The notes beneath the pieces are model-generated. The model was not told where the DNA came from. It searched no databases and saw nothing but the letters and a program-made list of their open reading frames with translations. Of a stretch of 64,000 bases of DNA, positions 18,152 through 26,453 are shown piece by piece. Each line of letters begins with the position of its first letter. Position 1 is the first letter of the stretch. Source of the DNA: Anaerococcus marasmi. Its GTDB lineage: Bacteria; Bacillota; Clostridia; Tissierellales; Peptoniphilaceae. A program made the position numbers and the translations under genes. Where the stretch lies: contig NZ_OLMF01000004.1 in the NCBI RefSeq assembly GCF_900290195.1, forward strand, positions 485,501 to 549,500, read 5' to 3'.

Positions 18152-18184
18152 AAATAGCGCCGATTAATACCGGTGCTATTTTTT
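18152..18184. terminator. Shared terminator for scfB and the V-ATPase operon
   Basis: AATAGCGCCG pairs with CGGTGCTATT (one G-T pair) around an 8-base loop, with A and T runs on either side. It serves two convergent genes and contains the stop codon of ntpD. Confidence 0.9.
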
Positions 18185-18814
18185 AGATTCTTCTTTTTTA
18201 ATTTTATTTTCTTTGACAATCTTGGTCTTGGAGAATTCTTCTCTTTCCTTCTCCTCTATACTTTGAGATATAGTCTTAATCATTTCCTTGTATTTTGGAA
18301 TTTGAACCTTATCCAAACTATTTACTTTCTTGCTTGTCTTTTTAATTTCTCTATCTAAAGAGTTAATTGTAGTATCAAGCTCAGCGAGCTTAAATATCTT
18401 AGATCTTAATTGATTAAAAGAAAGTATAGCCTCATCAAAACCAGCATTGGTTTCATAGAATGAATAAGATAAGTTAAGCTTTACATCTTCAAAGTGAATT
18501 TCAGATATTTCTGTCTGCATGAACTTATCAACTTTTAAGCTAATACTATTATCTATTGGCACAGTCTTTGATATAGAATCAAGATCCGATTCACCAATGC
18601 TTACCAAGACTTTTTTGAAATCATGGCTGACCTTTTTGATCGTCTCATTTACCTTTTCATTTAAATCATTACGTTCTTTTATCTTGGAATCATAAGCTCC
18701 AACCAAGGCCTTTCTCTTCTTATCGAGTATGTCGTATCCACCCTCTAAGAGATTTAGTTCTTCTTTTGCCTTGATTAGATTGGCCTTTGTAGCTGCAACA
18801 TTATTTGTTTGCAT
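18176..18814 (-). CDS. ntpD: V-type ATPase subunit D (central stalk)
   Basis: A 212-residue coiled-coil protein that forms the rotating shaft inside the A3B3 head. The N-terminus MQTNNVAATKANLIKAKEEL and LDKKRKALV are characteristic of subunit D, and the C-terminal half returns as a second long helix. I start at the ATG at 18814 because AGGTGA precedes it by five bases; a GTG at 18823 overlaps that site. It is the last gene of the operon, one base after ntpB. Confidence 0.92.
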   Translation of the reverse strand: MQTNNVAATKANLIKAKEELNLLEGGYDILDKKRKALVGAYDSKIKERNDLNEKVNETIKKVSHDFKKVLVSIGESDLDSISKTVPIDNSISLKVDKFMQTEISEIHFEDVKLNLSYSFYETNAGFDEAILSFNQLRSKIFKLAELDTTINSLDREIKKTSKKVNSLDKVQIPKYKEMIKTISQSIEEKEREEFSKTKIVKENKIKKEESKK

Positions 18815-18815
18815 A

Positions 18816-20180
18816 CTATTCACCTATAAACTTATCTAGATTCTCTTTAGAAACTCTGTGAAGCTCATTTCTTGGAAGGATTTTAAGAATTTCCCAACCT
18901 AAATCTAGAGATTCATCGAGTTCTCTATTCTCATCCTTATCTTGGGCTAAGAATCTTCTTTCAAATTCATCTCCGAAACGCAAATATTTCTTATCAACAT
19001 CGGACAAATCATCTTCACCAACAATTTGAGAAATATTTCTAACATCTTGGACTTTAGAATATGATTCATAAAGTTGGTTCATTAGGTCTTCGTGGTCAGC
19101 CCTTGTATAACCTTCACCTATACCGTCCTTCATAAGCCTTGATAAGGAAGGAAGTACATTTATTGGAGGATAGATTCCCTTATTAGAAAGAGATCTATCG
19201 ATTACAATTTGCCCCTCTGTAATATAGCCTGTAAGGTCTGCAACAGGGTGGGTGATATCATCATTAGGCATGGTAAGTATTGGAATAAGAGTTACAGATC
19301 CCTTAACTCCCTCAATCATGCCTGCTCTCTCATATAAAGAAGCAAGGTCTGAGTAAAGATATCCAGGATAGCCCTTCCTTGAAGGAACCTCTCCTCTTAT
19401 AGATGAAACTTCACGTAGGGCTTCTGAATAAGATGTCATATCTGTAACTATTACTAATACGTGATAGCCCTTCTTGTAAGCTAGATATTCAGCTGCTGTT
19501 AGGGCACATTTTGGAGCAACAAGTCTTTCCATTATTGGAGAGTCTGCAAGGTTTTGATACATTACAACCTTATCACGAACACCTGCCTTATTGAAGGCAT
19601 CTTCAAAAAACATTGCTTCGTCTTTCTTAATCCCCATAGCGGCAAAAACAAAGCAAAAGTTCTCATCTGTCTTAAGCTTAGCTTGTCTTACAATCTGTGC
19701 TGCAATCTCGTTGTGTGAAAGACCAGATCCAGAAAATATAGGTAGCTTTTGTCCACGGATAAGGGTTGTTAGTGTATCAATAGAAGAGATTCCTGTTTGG
19801 ATGAAGTCTCTTGGGTACTCACGTGCTACAGGATTTAGTGGAAGTCCTTCCACTGAATATTTATCATCAGAGTAGATATCTCCACCATTATCTATAGGTT
19901 CTCCTATCCCGTTAAAGCTTCTACCAAGTATTGATTCATCGAGAGGAATCTCTAAAGGCTTTTCATGAAAGCTTACTACTATGTCATTTAAGGAGAACTC
20001 TTCTGTATTACCAAAAACTTCAATAGTTACAGTATCTTCATCGATTTTTACAACTTGACCTACAAAGTCCATCCCTAAAGCGTGAACAGATACTACTGCC
20101 TTGTAGGCTACATCTGTAACTTTTTCTATTTCAATCATAGATGATTCAATTTTTCTAATCTTAGTATATTCTTTTCTCAT
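18816..20180 (-). CDS. ntpB: V-type ATPase subunit B (regulatory, nucleotide-binding)
   Basis: A 454-residue non-catalytic head subunit. It has a degenerate nucleotide site ([15 protein letters not shown]) in place of a Walker A motif, as usual for B, and the conserved [24 protein letters not shown] block (positions about 265-290). Length is normal. A GGAAGG site in the final codons of ntpA precedes the ATG, which follows the ntpA stop without a gap. Confidence 0.97.
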
Positions 20181-21929
20181 CTATAAACCTTCCTTCACAG
20201 TTACAAAATGATTGTTGATCTTTGAATTAAGATCAATAAACTTATCCAACTCGTCATTTTTAATATTATATTTCATTTGAGTAATCTCATTAATAAGATT
20301 TGAATCATATATTTCCGCATGACTTAAGCCAGAAGAAATAGCTGCCTTACTCTTTTGGTAATAATTATAAATAATGTCGAGCATCTTGACTTGTTTTTCA
20401 AGTGGGACATACTTATCTATGTCATTGTAAGCATTTTGTTGTAAGAAGCCATTTCTTATAAGACCTGAAACATCTAATATGTTCTTTTGACTATTAGAAA
20501 GTGCATCTTCACCCACTAGCATCATGATAGATCTAACTTCGTCTTCTTCAAGGAGGACATTCATCAATTCATTTCTTATAGCAATTATGTCCTTACCAAG
20601 TCTTTCCTCATAGTAGGCTCTTATTTTTTCAATATAGTTAGAATAAGAAGAAAGCCAGTTTATAGCTGGATAGTGTCTTGAATAAGCAAGCTTTCTATCA
20701 AGCCCTAAAAATACATTTACACATCTTCTAGTATTTTCTGTTACAGGCTCTGAGAAGTCGCCTCCTGAAGGAGATACGGCCCCGATAAGAGTAACAGAAC
20801 CTTCGCTTCCGTTTAAGTTTTTGAAATATCCCGCTCTTTCATAAAATTGTGAAAGTCTTGATCCAAGATATGCAGGATAGCCTTCCTCGGCTGGAATCTC
20901 TTCAAGTCTTCCAGATATTTCACGTAAGGCTTCTGCCCATCTGGATGATGAGTCTGCCATAAGGGCTACATCGTAACCCATGTCTCTAAAGTATTCAGCC
21001 ATAGTTATACCAGTATAAATAGAAGCTTCCCTTGCTGCTACTGGCATGTTTGAAGTATTGGCAATTAATATAGTTCTTTCCATTAGTCCCTTACCTGTGT
21101 TTGGATCTATAAGATCAGGGAACTCCTCAAGAACCTGGGTCATCTCATTTCCACGCTCGCCACATCCAATGTAGATTATTATATCTACGTCAGAATATTG
21201 AGCAAGTTGGTGTTGAAGCATAGTCTTACCTGTACCAAATCCCCCAGGGATGGCAACTGTACCACCCTTAGCAAGAGGGAAGAAGACATCTAGGACTCTT
21301 TGTCCTGTCTCAAATAGCTTCTCTATTGGCATATTGGCCATAACTGGTCTTTGATTTCTAACTGGCCAATATTGGTAGAGTTTCTCCTCCACTACACCTT
21401 TTTCTGTCTTAATCTTAACAACTGTATCCTCAAGTGTATAGGCGCCGTCTTCAACAACTTCTATAACCTCACCACTAACTTGAGTCATAAGTCTATGCTC
21501 AATTGTTTCAGTTTCTTTTATAGTAGCGTAGATATCGCCCCTTTTAACTTTATCTCCGACTTTAACCCTAAGTTTGACATCCCATTTTTTCTCAGTGTCC
21601 AAGTTTTCAAAACCTATACCTGAAGGGATAAAGGCACCGTTTTTGTCCATAATACTCTTTAAGGGTCTTTGGATACCATCAAACATGTTCCCAAGCATTC
21701 CTGGACCAAGTCTTACAGAAAGAGGTCTGCCTGTTGGGATTATTTCTTCATTAACTTTAAGTCCTGACGTATCTTCGTAAACCTGAATTGTCGCAAGATC
21801 TCCCTCTAGTGAAATTACTTCACCTATAAGTTTTAGCTTACCAACTGAAACCATCTCACGAACTGTTAAGATTTTTGCATCTTGTGCAATTACAACAGGA
21901 CCGTTTATTGTTTTAATTTTTGGATTCAT
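20181..21929 (-). CDS. ntpA: V-type ATPase subunit A (catalytic)
   Basis: A 582-residue catalytic head subunit. Walker A is PGGFGTGKT near residue 235. The non-homologous bulge typical of V-type A subunits lies before it, and [20 protein letters not shown] follows. I start at the ATG at 21929 ([13 protein letters not shown]), which matches the family N-terminus; the reading frame could extend upstream to a TTG at 21947. The start lies inside the end of ntpE (17-base overlap). Confidence 0.97.
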
Positions 21930-22518
21930 TAAAACTCTCACTTTCAAGAAGTTGATTTAGTTTCTTACCAACTTCATATTTCTTATCTTTAAGTTTATTC
22001 AAATAAGTATAATTATATCTAAAATCTTTATCAAGATTTGAAATTATAAAACCACCAATGTATTCATTGTCTAAGACTTCTACATTAGGAAAATCTATAA
22101 GATTCTTATCTTTTTCCAAAACGCTTACTATTACTTCGTCCTTACTTAGGTCAAGCTCCTTTAAAGAATTATCTATCATAGAATTTAACTTGTCTTTATA
22201 GTCGTTAGTATTAGTAAAATTTTTGAGATTATCTTTGATTCTTTTTGTCAAATCTTCTAATAAAGATTGTCTATAAAGAAATATATCATTTTTAGATTCA
22301 AATTCTTTCTTAGAAACATTCTCATTCTTTCTAGTTTCAGCAAATATCTGTCTATCTTTGACACTCTCTTCTAAGTGCTTTTCTAATTCCGCCTTTTTAT
22401 CTGAAACTAATTTTGAATTATCCTCTGTTGACTGATATAATTCTTTTTCACTTTTTTCTTTTTCTTCATCCCAAACCATTTTTCTAAAGGATGAAATCTT
22501 CGCTTCTAGGTCTAGCAT
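21913..22518 (-). CDS. ntpE: V-type ATPase subunit E (peripheral stalk)
   Basis: A 201-residue protein, highly charged and helical in residues 1-110, then a compact C-terminal domain with GGFIISNLDKDFRYNYTYL, the pattern of subunit E that caps the head. It forms the outer stalk with subunit G. No separate subunit G gene is present in this operon (see the subunit I entries). GGAGGAA precedes the ATG at 22518; a TTG at 22533 in the same frame overlaps it and the ntpF stop. Sequence is divergent, so the call rests on context and the C-terminal domain. Confidence 0.8.
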   Translation of the reverse strand: MLDLEAKISSFRKMVWDEEKEKSEKELYQSTEDNSKLVSDKKAELEKHLEESVKDRQIFAETRKNENVSKKEFESKNDIFLYRQSLLEDLTKRIKDNLKNFTNTNDYKDKLNSMIDNSLKELDLSKDEVIVSVLEKDKNLIDFPNVEVLDNEYIGGFIISNLDKDFRYNYTYLNKLKDKKYEVGKKLNQLLESESFNESKN

Positions 22519-22529
22519 ATTTCCTCCAA

Positions 22530-22769
22530 TCAACCATCAATAACTACGATTAAAGGCTCACTCTGATTTTCTCTATAATAATCAACATCGTTAGATATAT
22601 GATTATAAATTGTTCTGCTTAAGATAAGAACAGCTAGATTATCATCTTTTACAGAAGCCTTAAACTTATCAAGACTTTCTTCGATTCTATCTACCTGCTC
22701 TATTTCTATGCCTCCAAGCCTAAACATAAGGTTTAAGCTTGGATCATTGCTTATTAATTTTGCCTTCAT
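22530..22769 (-). CDS. V-type ATPase subunit F (central stalk), short form
   Basis: A 79-residue protein in the position of subunit F (NtpG in Enterococcus). It has the Rossmann-like start MKAKLISNDPSLNLMFRLGG and the strands LAVLILSRTIYNHI and PLIVVIDG. Normal F subunits have about 100-105 residues and end in a helix that contacts D and the head. Here the chain stops just after the last strand, and the frame beyond the stop meets another stop within five codons. So the C-terminal helix is missing or encoded elsewhere. It ends 11 bases before ntpE. Confidence 0.75.
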   Translation of the reverse strand: MKAKLISNDPSLNLMFRLGGIEIEQVDRIEESLDKFKASVKDDNLAVLILSRTIYNHISNDVDYYRENQSEPLIVVIDG

Positions 22770-22770
22770 T

Positions 22771-23199
22771 TTATGCGTATAGGATTAAGATTGAGATAAT
22801 TACACCGAAGATAGCAATACCTTCTGCAAGACCTACGAAGATTATTGTTCTACCAAGGATAGATTGATCTTCTGAGATAGCTCCTAGTGCTGCTGAACCA
22901 ACAGTACCTACTGCATATCCTGTACCAATTGTTGCAAGACCTGTTGAAAGGGCTGCACCAATGTATTTTAGTCCATCACTTGCTGCTGCACTAGTACCAG
23001 CTTCTGCAGCTTTAGAGCTTGATGGGAAAAGAAGAACTATCATCATTACCATAATTGGAACGAAAGTAGATAGGTTAAGCTTTAATGCCTTTCTTATCTT
23101 TGCCTTTGAACTATCTTCGTTTGTTTTTAACAAATATAAACCTGAATAAATTGTCATTACGACAACTGCTAATGCTAATAAAGCAATTTTAAAAATCAT
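22771..23199 (-). CDS. ntpK: V-type ATPase subunit K (membrane rotor ring)
   Basis: A 142-residue proteolipid with four hydrophobic segments. The first two (about 4-25 and 45-63) are not c-like. The second pair is a typical c-type hairpin: GLATIGTGYAVGTVGSAALGA and FVGLAEGIAIFGVIISILIL, with the ion-binding glutamate in GLAEG. There is thus one carboxylate per subunit. Whether it carries protons or sodium cannot be settled by eye. It sits between the I gene and F. Confidence 0.9.
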   Translation of the reverse strand: MIFKIALLALAVVVMTIYSGLYLLKTNEDSSKAKIRKALKLNLSTFVPIMVMMIVLLFPSSSKAAEAGTSAAASDGLKYIGAALSTGLATIGTGYAVGTVGSAALGAISEDQSILGRTIIFVGLAEGIAIFGVIISILILYA

Positions 23200-23208
23200 A
23201 TTAACTCC

Positions 23209-24585
23209 TTATTTTTCTGTGATTGGTCTAAATTTACGACCATTTCCTTCATAATACTTACTAAACATCTCGTAAAATTCTAGCCTTAGTCCTTGAATGA
23301 ACACTATCATACCTTCAAGTCCAATTATTAAAATATTACCTAAGATTAGAATGATTATTCCAATTATTCCACCACCTGCTAGTTTTGCCATGACTTCAAA
23401 TGCCATATATAAACCAACGTGGTTAATTGCGAAAGCTCCAACTCTAGTAAAAGATACTAAGTTAGAAAAGACTGACAATAGAGCTTCTACAATTGAGAAT
23501 GAACTTTCTACATAATAGTCACCCTTGGAACTATCGTATAAAGGATATTCTCCATCGATCCTTCTTGCTAGTGGCTGTTTAAATATTATCATCACTATTG
23601 ATAATACAAGCATAACTACAGCTACTGGCATTGGAAGTGGGCTTTTTCCTACTATATTAAGAATAATTAGAATAAAAGATATCATCATCATAAGACCTGC
23701 TAGGCCTTCTTTACCAAAGATTCCTTCTTCTATATTATTTTGTTTTTTGACTTTATTGAAAATTCCTATTATATAAGATATAACCATCAAGACTACACCG
23801 AATGCAACTGATGCTATTAGTACAGTCATTATATTATCAAAAGGCTTAATCAATAATGTAGGAATCAGTGTCTCTATACCAAAGAATGAGCCGTACATCA
23901 ATCCAAATATAGATGAACTTATTCCGATTCTTCTTACTAGGCCGCCAAAGGTCTTGTTTATCTTATCTACATAGAAGCTTAACAAAACAAATACTAATCC
24001 TTGTCCTAAGTCCCCAAACATCATTCCGTATAGTAATAAATATGTTATAGCGAAAAATGGTGTTGGGTCAATCTCGTTGTAATTTGGTGCTCCATACATG
24101 TTCACCAAAAATTCGAAAGGACGAAACAAAGTATTATTCTTTAATTTGGTCGGCGGTTTCGAGGAATAACTCCTATTGTTTATATTTACCTTAGTTTTGT
24201 CGTATTTTTCTTCAAGCTCTTTGAAGTCATCGACTTTTGATTCAGGAACCCAGCCACTAAGGTAGAAGTACTTGTCCCCTTTTGCCATCTTATCCTTTAT
24301 CTCGCTACTTTTTTCATAGTAGTCAATAGTATGCGGAATATCTTCTATAAGATCTTCGTTTTGATTTTTGATAGCTTCGATTTTTTCTTCTAGTTCTTTA
24401 ATTTCTTTGTTAGTTTCTTCTAATTTTTTATCAACAGTTTCTAAATTATAAGACTCTGGAGTCTTTTTATCTATAAAACCCATTGTATTGACAGCTCTTT
24501 TGATATCTTCTTTAACTTGTTTAGGATAAACTAACAAATAATTTTCTTTGCTGTCAATATTTTTATTTTTATTCTTATTTGCCAA
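23209..24585 (-). CDS. ntpI: V-type ATPase subunit I, C-terminal part (membrane stator) after an in-frame stop
   Basis: A 458-residue protein. It starts with a Lys/Asn-rich stretch, then ENYLLVYPKQVKEDIK (a strand from the middle of normal subunit I), a coiled coil, FYLSGWVPESKVDDF, and from about 150 on the seven or so membrane helices with DPTPFFAITYLLLYGMMFGDLGQG. The membrane part carries the ion half-channels. The only start in reach is TTG at 24585, directly after the TAA that ends the preceding gene and in the same frame. An AAGG lies ten bases before it. It may be made by reinitiation, or by reading through the stop. Confidence 0.85.
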   Translation of the reverse strand: MANKNKNKNIDSKENYLLVYPKQVKEDIKRAVNTMGFIDKKTPESYNLETVDKKLEETNKEIKELEEKIEAIKNQNEDLIEDIPHTIDYYEKSSEIKDKMAKGDKYFYLSGWVPESKVDDFKELEEKYDKTKVNINNRSYSSKPPTKLKNNTLFRPFEFLVNMYGAPNYNEIDPTPFFAITYLLLYGMMFGDLGQGLVFVLLSFYVDKINKTFGGLVRRIGISSSIFGLMYGSFFGIETLIPTLLIKPFDNIMTVLIASVAFGVVLMVISYIIGIFNKVKKQNNIEEGIFGKEGLAGLMMMISFILIILNIVGKSPLPMPVAVVMLVLSIVMIIFKQPLARRIDGEYPLYDSSKGDYYVESSFSIVEALLSVFSNLVSFTRVGAFAINHVGLYMAFEVMAKLAGGGIIGIIILILGNILIIGLEGMIVFIQGLRLEFYEMFSKYYEGNGRKFRPITEK

Positions 24586-25470
24586 TTATTTAGTCCCTTC
24601 TTCTAAAATAGATGAGCTAATCTCAGAAACTATGTCTTCACTATGATTTTCATAGATCCTATCGAGATTATCCTTCATTTGTTTATACTCGTTTTCTATA
24701 TCTTTCTTCCTTGATTCGCCCTCAGATAGGATATTTGAGTAAAGCTCGTCTGTTTTATCTTTGGTTAATGAGGAATACTTTTTATCCAACTCGCTTATTA
24801 CATTAAAAGTATTAGCTTTTTCATTCGATATAATCTTATCTGTGTCGGATCTAAGTTTACTTGTTTCCTTATCAAGGGCTATTAATTCGTCAAGATAGCC
24901 TAAAGACATATCGTCAAGACTATTATCTAGGTGTAGAATCAATGAAGGCAAGTTATCGTAGTTATTCTTTAGTATATATCTACCATCCTTGCTTACTTCC
25001 CCAAACCTATGATCAAAATAATTGAGATTTTTGATCTTAGCTATATCTATTCCATATTTGTTAAGGACTTCCAAATTATCCTTATACTCTTGAAGAATAT
25101 TTTTTTCTTCTTCTAATCTGTTTTTCTTATCAATTAATGCGTTCAAGTCGTCGTATAAACTGTCAATTTCACTTTCAGAAATATGTTTGCTTCTTTTAGT
25201 TCCTTGAGAATCTATTTTAAACAAGTCTTTCAGTAAATTCAACTTATCTATAATAGATTTATTTGGCCTTTCAAAGCTCGATATAGTCGATATATCTTCA
25301 GTCAATTCTACATTTTCTTTACTAGCCTTAATTGAGAAAGCTCTTGATGCTACTTGATTAAAGGCATCAACCGGTTCAATATCGCCTAGTTCAATAATAT
25401 CTTCTAGAAAATCGTCGAGATTATTTAATCTAGAAGTAACATTGACAAGGTGCATTTTTTCAACTGCCAT
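24586..25470 (-). CDS. ntpI: V-type ATPase subunit I, N-terminal part, with a C-terminal G-subunit-like coiled coil
   Basis: A 294-residue protein. Residues 1-185 (MAVEKMHLVNVTSRL to SLILHLDNS) match the cytoplasmic N-terminal lobe of subunit I. In a normal subunit I this would continue straight into the YLLVYPK strand found in the next gene. Instead residues about 194-294 form a charged helix of about 100 residues (LDKETSKLRSDTDKII to SEDIVSEISSSIL) that resembles the small peripheral stalk subunit G, absent elsewhere in the operon. A TAA then separates it from the rest of I in the same frame. GAGGT before the ATG is good. Function inferred from context and pattern. Confidence 0.75.
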   Translation of the reverse strand: MAVEKMHLVNVTSRLNNLDDFLEDIIELGDIEPVDAFNQVASRAFSIKASKENVELTEDISTISSFERPNKSIIDKLNLLKDLFKIDSQGTKRSKHISESEIDSLYDDLNALIDKKNRLEEEKNILQEYKDNLEVLNKYGIDIAKIKNLNYFDHRFGEVSKDGRYILKNNYDNLPSLILHLDNSLDDMSLGYLDELIALDKETSKLRSDTDKIISNEKANTFNVISELDKKYSSLTKDKTDELYSNILSEGESRKKDIENEYKQMKDNLDRIYENHSEDIVSEISSSILEEGTK

Positions 25471-25472
25471 AA

Positions 25473-26453
25473 TTACCTCACAATCACTAGTTCATATCTT
25501 TCAGAAAGAGTAAAGCTCTCATCAACCTCTAACAGACTAACTAAATTTTCGATATTTGTGTAGACTTTCGTCATAGCAGAAATAACATAAAGAATAGTAG
25601 ATCTTTCTTTGATTATTTCATCTCTTGAAAGTTTCATCTTCATCTTCATAATCCTAATATGTGAATCCCACGCATTATCAAAAATATTTTTGTACTTAGT
25701 ACCATCAAGGTATTCAAAGAAATCATCCATGGACAAGTTAGATATCATCTTAAGCCTATCGGCATTATAGCCCTTGCCACCTTCAATCAAATAATTAAAT
25801 ATCTCATTATTATTTAGATTAAAGAACTTCTTGAGCCTATAAAGCATTTCAAGGTTAGATAAGTTAATTAACTCACCCACAAAATTTTCAATAAGGACTT
25901 TCTCTTTTGCCTTAAACTTCTTAGCTAATTTCAGAAGATTTCTAAAATAAAATTTCATCAAAGCATTGCTTGACAAAAATATCAATGATTCCTTATCCAT
26001 ATTTTCATTTATAAAGGGCAAAAGAGTTCTGTAATACTTACTATCTCTAAGCCCTTCTATAAATTCTTCTAATGAATAGTCAACATTGATTTTTAAATCT
26101 TTAGAAAACGGATTTTGTTTTAAATTTAAAATATTTTTCTCCAAAGTATTGTTGAGTATACATTGTATTACTTCTTGAATAAGATATATCTCATAAATAC
26201 TGAAATATTCCTTAAAGAACTCACTCTCAATACCTTCTAGAAAAAAATCTAAACTTTGTAGTTCATCATGGAAGTTTCTAAACAATTTTAATTCGACTTC
26301 TTTTTTGCCTATAGCTCCGTCTAGAAAATCATAATGTCTTTTCAATAATCCTATTTTTCTTTCTAAATTGCTCTCATGAATTAATTTATTATAGAGATCG
26401 TCACTGGGTAGCTTTCCCATTTTTGCTTTTGCTTTTACAGTCACATCTCTCAT
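25473..26453 (-). CDS. ntpC: V-type ATPase subunit C (rotor adaptor)
   Basis: A 326-residue helical protein of the V-ATPase C/d family, which links the central stalk to the K ring. The pattern ARMGKL-like start (KAKAKMGKLPSDDLYNKL), repeated helices and the final IVSAMTKVYTNIENL-like end fit. Sequence conservation is low, so the call rests partly on the operon. It is the first gene here, whereas C usually follows E in Enterococcus. AGAGG precedes the ATG, and it ends two bases before the next start. Confidence 0.8.
   Translation of the reverse strand: MRDVTVKAKAKMGKLPSDDLYNKLIHESNLERKIGLLKRHYDFLDGAIGKKEVELKLFRNFHDELQSLDFFLEGIESEFFKEYFSIYEIYLIQEVIQCILNNTLEKNILNLKQNPFSKDLKINVDYSLEEFIEGLRDSKYYRTLLPFINENMDKESLIFLSSNALMKFYFRNLLKLAKKFKAKEKVLIENFVGELINLSNLEMLYRLKKFFNLNNNEIFNYLIEGGKGYNADRLKMISNLSMDDFFEYLDGTKYKNIFDNAWDSHIRIMKMKMKLSRDEIIKERSTILYVISAMTKVYTNIENLVSLLEVDESFTLSERYELVIVR

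Follow-up and report, generated by a model that had tools for sequence, protein, structure and literature searches.

To our knowledge, the stators of A/V-type ATPases are built from separate E–G rods that stand on a subunit I made in one piece. For the V/A-type enzyme of Thermus thermophilus the stator composition is given as a1E2G2 in the available part of PMC7367684. The operon analysed here has its set of subunits and the fold of subunit I in common with that enzyme (PDB 6r0z); however, I is one chain in T. thermophilus and G is free, with two copies per complex, whereas in Anaerococcus I would be two chains, with G as the tail of the first. Some N-type ATPases carry b–delta fusions, which likewise join a peripheral-stalk rod covalently to another stator part, but both the ATPase type and the partner are different, and the available part of PMC11738941 does not mention splitting of a membrane stator subunit. 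The nearest counterpart is the orthologous operon found in other members of the family and order, as at loci L067 and L071; it runs G–C–I–K–F–E–A–B–D. It has the same gene order and a homologous free G, and differs in that G lies free upstream of C and I is unsplit. Neither a split I nor a G–I fusion is described in the titles and abstract beginnings among the matches listed from the open-access literature.

Anaerococcus species are human-associated bacteria. In this genus and a sister genus the stator of a V/A-type ATPase appears to have been rewired, with G fused to the N-terminal half of subunit I (I_N) and I itself made as two chains (probability about 0.85). Evolution seems to have joined the rod to its anchor, at the cost of cutting the anchor in two.

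Subunit I in two genes

The window, which is the whole 64,000-nucleotide stretch of Anaerococcus marasmi DNA that was analysed, contains a V/A-type ATPase operon with the order C–[I_N–G]–I_C–K–F–E–A–B–D, preceded in minus-strand gene order by MiaB. Its features are as follows.

25473..26453, minus strand: subunit C (AC39/d type; Pfam vATP-synt_AC39, E 3.3e-28)
24586–25470, minus strand: ORF1, 294 aa, ending in TAA (ORF call)
24916..25470, minus strand: ORF1 residues 1–185, outgoing, N-terminal half of the subunit I cytoplasmic arm (profile, AlphaFold)
24601..24903, minus strand: ORF1 residues 190–290, putative G-type peripheral-stalk helix fused to I_N (free-G profile, hhalign, AlphaFold, dN/dS)
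24586..24588, minus strand: TAA stop of ORF1
24583..24585, minus strand: TTG start of ORF2, directly 3' of the stop
23209–24585, minus strand: ORF2, 458 aa, second part of V-ATPase subunit I
24184..24552, minus strand: ORF2 residues 12–134, returning half of the arm (RH), opening with the strand after the break (RH profile)
23212..24183, minus strand: ORF2 residues 135–458, last part of the subunit I arm, and the membrane domain (Pfam V_ATPase_I, NCBIfam)
22771..23199, minus strand: subunit K, proteolipid (Pfam ATP-synt_C, E 9.9e-16)
22530..22769, minus strand: subunit F, 79 aa (Pfam ATP-synt_F, E 2.2e-10)
21913..22533, minus strand: subunit E, expected coiled-coil partner of G (Pfam vATP-synt_E, E 3.1e-9)
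20181..21947, minus strand: subunit A, catalytic (Pfam ATP-synt_ab, E 3.2e-77)
18816..20180, minus strand: subunit B (Pfam ATP-synt_ab, E 7.2e-77)
18176..18823, minus strand: subunit D (Pfam ATP-synt_D, E 4e-42)

An earlier note on this DNA had read ORF1 as the N-terminal part of subunit I up to residue 185, ending in TAA, with the TTG of ORF2 following immediately and in frame. Both observations hold. ORF1 profiles match the first ∼185 residues (about 1–186) of unsplit I in relatives, and residues 1–185 taken alone do so with E values down to 6.1e-36. For annotation it matters that Pfam gives no significant match to ORF1, and NCBIfam a marginal one (E 0.014). The match of ORF2 to Pfam V_ATPase_I starts at model position 207 (E 7.8e-27), and its residues 135–458 match the NCBIfam V-type ATP synthase subunit I with E 2e-58, which is below that model's curated cut-off. 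Together, ORF1 and ORF2 supply the fold of subunit I, with two α/β lobes, a helical bundle and the membrane domain, as judged from Pfam, arm homology and a model of the read-through chain. Subunit F, called at 79 aa in the window and at 76–99 aa across both genera, does not have the C-terminal stretch; in relatives it is 101–109 aa in seven of the eight examined and 83 aa in L077.

The tail of ORF1 and the free gene of related operons

Thirty-one related loci, picked from the family and order match lists rather than comprising all matches, were read. In the 30 of these that contain I it is one gene of 641–663 aa, and all 31 have a free gene of 102–131 aa (one called at 171 aa) that adjoins C on its upstream side wherever the order was read. 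A profile of the fused tail matched exactly one ORF per related locus; among ORFs of 60 aa or more, nothing else reached E<0.01. In the reverse direction, the profile of the 31 free genes matches window ORF1 residues 194–290 (57.9 bits, E 5e-17) and the ORF1 tail, about residues 190–290, in 33/33 genomes. The weakest of these matches are L085 (E 5.8e-7) and L112 of G002 (E 4.8e-7, only half the tail being in frame). Comparison of the two families by hhalign gave 98.9 % and E 3.6e-17 over 105 columns, and the near-invariant D12 and T15 of the free gene align without gaps to D200 and T203, which are invariant in ORF1. By blastp alone, ORF1 is connected with the free gene in three of the nine related loci compared.

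Generic coiled-coil similarity was rejected as the source of the match. The highest score among 4000 shuffled tails (2000 shuffled freely, 2000 within the heptad register) was 16.8 bits, versus 62.0 for the real tail; one ORF matches per related locus; and the best match of the free-gene profile other than ORF1, a subunit E, scores far lower (E 1.4e-3). The tail is identified as the G-slot gene, because relatives keep a homologous free gene beside an unsplit I. The earlier note's claim that a G-type coil is joined on where I breaks, within the N-terminal arm, is supported by homology to the free gene, by that gene's fixed place in the operon of relatives and by the presence of the tail in 33 of 33 genomes. 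Relatives with an unsplit I and a separate G had been named there as telling against the proposal; such relatives do exist, yet their layout looks ancestral, and it is they that identify the coil.

The slot upstream of C is empty where the ORF1 tail is present. Among window ORFs of at least 60 aa, the free-gene profile found no other G candidate (best other ORF, outside the operon, E 0.024). A six-frame whole-genome search with the ORF1 profile gave a single match in 30 of the 31 Anaerococcus genomes and two overlapping pieces at one place in G002; as this is one place per genome, no further copy of ORF1 or the free gene was found in Anaerococcus.

Every one of the 31 Anaerococcus genomes does carry a second V-ATPase G, found in part in G002, and each also has a second I-type match. 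The absence of another G therefore applies to the operon, as originally claimed, and to the window, but not to the genome. In A. marasmi the second operon has an ordinary layout (L005:6525–14964, C2 at about 1.50 Mb), with a free G of 107 aa, an unsplit I of 646 aa, a K of 156 aa, and E, C, F, A, B and D. Its two stator genes of interest are listed here.

L005:6525–6848: second-operon G
L005:6835–8775: second-operon unsplit I

The tail might accordingly be a coiled-coil extension of I rather than a working G, with the stalk G coming from the second operon, whose G could serve the fused-type enzyme. The curated G models are in keeping with this: the earlier note had put forward a profile search against those families, but Pfam and NCBIfam G models barely recognise the ORF1 tail, and its free relatives fare little better. 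Of the 26 free sequences, eight match NCBIfam V-type subunit H (best E 1.5e-4) and two match Pfam V-ATPase_G (best E 0.011), and in single free sequences unrelated families score higher than the G models (a transposase family, 2.2e-5; OmpH, 4.2e-4). When compared as profiles, the free gene and the second-operon G align weakly (34.5 % over 29 columns), and a sequence search of solved structures with the ORF1 and free-G profiles found no V-ATPase G. Nevertheless, no homologue of the relatives' G-slot gene other than the tail was found in these genomes, and that slot is empty wherever the tail is present, so that an extension served by a foreign G is considered unlikely. The tail is most likely a G, a name which rests on the operon slot, the size, the predicted helix geometry and the lack of another candidate in the operon. 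It is homologous to the G-slot gene of an orthologous operon, and prediction gives it, with middling confidence, a helix of ∼100 residues able to span the distance from the I arm to the head.

Alignments comprised 30 of the 31 Anaerococcus genomes (A1, without G002), 26 of the 31 free G sequences (A2; the free-gene profile used all 31), 21 of the 31 second-operon G sequences (A3), and 18 of the 21 in-frame genomes with 30 unsplit I sequences (A4). Values of dN/dS were computed on seven of the 33 genomes. The two closest pairs give a tail dN/dS of 0.06, a rough figure because dS is already 1.3–1.5 there; two distant pairs give 0.18 and 0.31, and two pairs were not computable. Where computable, I_N gave 0.10–0.14 and ORF2 0.04–0.05. 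These values indicate that the tail is under constraint.

Distribution of the fused layout and its junctions

ORF1 is present in 31/31 Anaerococcus genomes (matches to P0001) and in two genomes of the sister genus (G068 and G069). In the collection of named genomes, the relatives fall in Anaerococcus (13 loci, for example A. tetradius ATCC 35098). The ORF1 profile finds a match in 89 of 130 genomes of the family and 134 of 249 of the order, and among the matches listed the fused layout is limited to Anaerococcus and genus g17. From the class, 391 genomes were sampled, with at most six candidates scored in each; 58 had a match, and no further fused case was seen among them. One match, in G528, sits at a contig edge. 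The contigs of G065 (genus g14; L166 and L167) break inside the I gene, so this genome was left out of the counts, and free G was not found near C in the 6 kb read upstream from the contig end. G065 possibly carries the same fusion.

The junction could be read in 32 of the 33 genomes (31 of the genus and two of the sister genus), the exception being the frameshift-disrupted G002, and ORF1 and ORF2 are separate genes in all 32, rather than encoding the continuous polypeptide that subunit I is elsewhere. An 879-aa open frame found by the six-frame search in G068 turned out on checking to be two ORFs of 291 and 585 aa. When junctions are classed by the first start codon after the ORF1 stop, TTG follows at once in eight of the 33 genomes, the window included, and ATG in three. 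Ten have other in-frame starts 0–15 bases past the stop, among them G004 with GTG at once and ATG 15 bases further. Out-of-frame junctions total ten, of which eight have starts 5–17 bases past the stop and two are overlaps of ORF1 and ORF2. In G022 the ORF2 start lies 102 bases past the ORF1 stop, with further stops between the genes. Stop codons, spacings and frames thus vary between genomes. The split of subunit I is real and old, and it is found throughout the genus.

The earlier note had left open whether the product is two chains, by reinitiation, or one chain, by readthrough of the stop. Of the two, only separate chains fit, because the junctions differ so much between species, being in frame directly after the stop, spaced, out of frame or overlapping. 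Programmed readthrough to a single polypeptide, with the two chains as a by-product, would suit the window and ten other genomes in which the genes abut in frame (TTG or ATG), and one more with GTG. However, with ten of 33 junctions out of frame and additional stops in G022, readthrough cannot be the shared mechanism and was rejected as a conserved device. Several species also have a Shine–Dalgarno-like site of the AAAGGAGG type ahead of ORF2, together with an ATG for ORF2, and in the predicted structure a straight helix of ∼100 residues could hardly return to the lobe via a disordered linker of ∼23 residues. One-chain synthesis is thus held to be very improbable.

Frameshifts in ORF1 or ORF2 occur at L118 (G016), L126 (G028) and L112 (G002), two of them at a homopolymer, and are likely assembly errors because other genomes have intact copies.

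The three frameshifted genomes, an E in two pieces in G016, a D in two pieces in G003 and the short F might be taken to imply a decaying operon that no longer yields an enzyme, which is about as improbable as one-chain synthesis. ORF1 and ORF2 are nonetheless intact in 30 of 33 genomes, and the dN/dS of ORF2 and I_N is well below 1. Of the 32 loci compared, all have C, K and F, 31 have E and A, and 29 have B and D; the genes that are missing lie past the end of the stretch read (L112, L065 and L066). A recent nonsense mutation or a sequencing error in an intact I with an ordinary insert, raised at the outset as the competing explanation, is consistent with the single in-frame stop between the halves in the window and 20 other genomes (G028 included) but was rejected and retains a negligible probability, since stops part the halves in all 32 readable genomes, with varied stop codons, spacings and frames and two overlaps, A. 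tetradius ATCC 35098 and other named isolates are among the species concerned, and the tail is under constraint as judged from dN/dS.

Predicted stalk geometry and half-arm duplication

The favoured reading is that of a G fused to I_N, with I_C as a separate chain. The read-through chain (ORF1 and ORF2 as one) was modelled with AlphaFold solely so as to fold both halves together. The model has a strand at residues 177–180, a single helix at 187–284, disorder at 285–307 and a strand at 309–316; its mean pLDDT is 74.4 and its pTM 0.44, with pLDDT dropping from 86 to 47 in the helix block. In the model of ORF1 alone the helix spans 187–293 (block pLDDT 80–94 over 191–280; pTM 0.34), while the first ∼70 residues are poor and the first strand is drawn as a helix, as might be expected of a half that depends on ORF2. 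Foldseek aligned the read-through model to T. thermophilus I with E 4.3e-19 and TM 0.52, and the sequence profile matches E. hirae I over its full length (E 2.2e-56).

Position 185 of T. thermophilus I aligns, by sequence profile, just beyond the break. Residues 144 and 196–201 of that protein are assigned to the distal subdomain in the available part of PMC7367684, and the break is placed in the distal lobe of I because position 185 falls between them. The tail helix has a predicted length of ∼147–160 Å, at 1.5 Å per residue, and the EG coil is given as 140 Å (PMC6131620, available part). Stalk direction is not stated uniformly in the available parts of these two papers, and some statements sit uneasily with the direction used here: in PMC6131620 a C-terminal globular part meets B, yet E is also said to contact the catalytic core through its N-terminus, and PMC7367684 also mentions a C-terminal EG region on the distal side. 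On the reading used, attachment to the distal lobe through its N-terminus would put G in the right place and point it in the right direction.

On sequence evidence the genus-wide rewiring is genuine at the level of genes: the free G gene has left the slot upstream of C and become the 3' part of the I_N gene, and the rest of I, comprising the returning half of the arm and the membrane domain, is encoded by a second gene. At the level of proteins the following design may be proposed. The two chains would be translated separately from these adjacent or overlapping genes. The I_N and I_C chains would then fold together into one I arm, from the distal lobe of which the G helix would run alongside E up to the head, so that one stalk would be covalently hard-wired to its anchor. 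As a helix of ∼100 residues ends far from the lobe, its far end could not return there; splitting I would solve this problem, which would explain why the subunit is split. Such an enzyme is a natural test of the attachment site, the direction and the number of stalks that a V-type motor needs. Where the half-arm is single, one I_N–G per I_C would supply one G, against the two of a1E2G2 in T. thermophilus.

The returning half (ORF2 residues 12–134) is single in the window and double in ten of the 33 genomes, namely G007, G010, G011, G012, G015, G022, G023, G024, G026 and G068; the unsplit I sequences (n=30) have one copy each at E<1e-5. The nine Anaerococcus species with the duplication form one clade (99/100) in the membrane-domain tree, from which rows of <300 aa were left out and in which six unsplit I sequences served as outgroup. 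In the half-arm tree (without G002; outgroup 8 of the 30 unsplit I) the copies of G068 group with each other (95/73), and so do all 18 of Anaerococcus (100/99); long branches, including that of G068, are flagged by the tool. This grouping favours two independent duplications, and the half-arm was probably duplicated twice. Where columns are conserved among single-copy half-arms, 61 % of the cells are kept in the extra copy, compared with 28 % in the remaining columns; for the other copy the figures are 76 % and 36 %. The extra copy retains the strand and helix E-YLLVYPK ... GF-DK, and its GWVP motif is altered.

The duplicated half suggests docking room for a second I_N–G, which would match two stalks per motor. 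A tentative extension, put forward as a possibility somewhat short of an even chance, is a two-armed hard-wired stator with one I_N–G per stalk and one docking half of I_C per stalk. The duplicated half of the nine-species clade and of G068 would bind two I_N–G and so restore two stalks, and species with a single half would have one hard-wired stalk with a second stalk of other origin, or one stalk. The series of species with a single half-arm, species with a duplicated half-arm and relatives with an intact I makes stalk number and coupling testable by comparison.

A different rearrangement of the stator anchor is seen in G232 and G233, where an extra 344-aa gene between C and the normal I (L073:4703–5737 and L074:3964–4998) encodes a soluble I arm without the membrane domain; G234 is a third case, known from the search table only. 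In these genomes too an extra anchor is encoded beside I; unlike in Anaerococcus, the whole arm is duplicated as a free protein and G stays free. Within the nine-species clade, ORF2 of G007 and G023 has ∼55–75 more N-terminal residues than that of the other seven.
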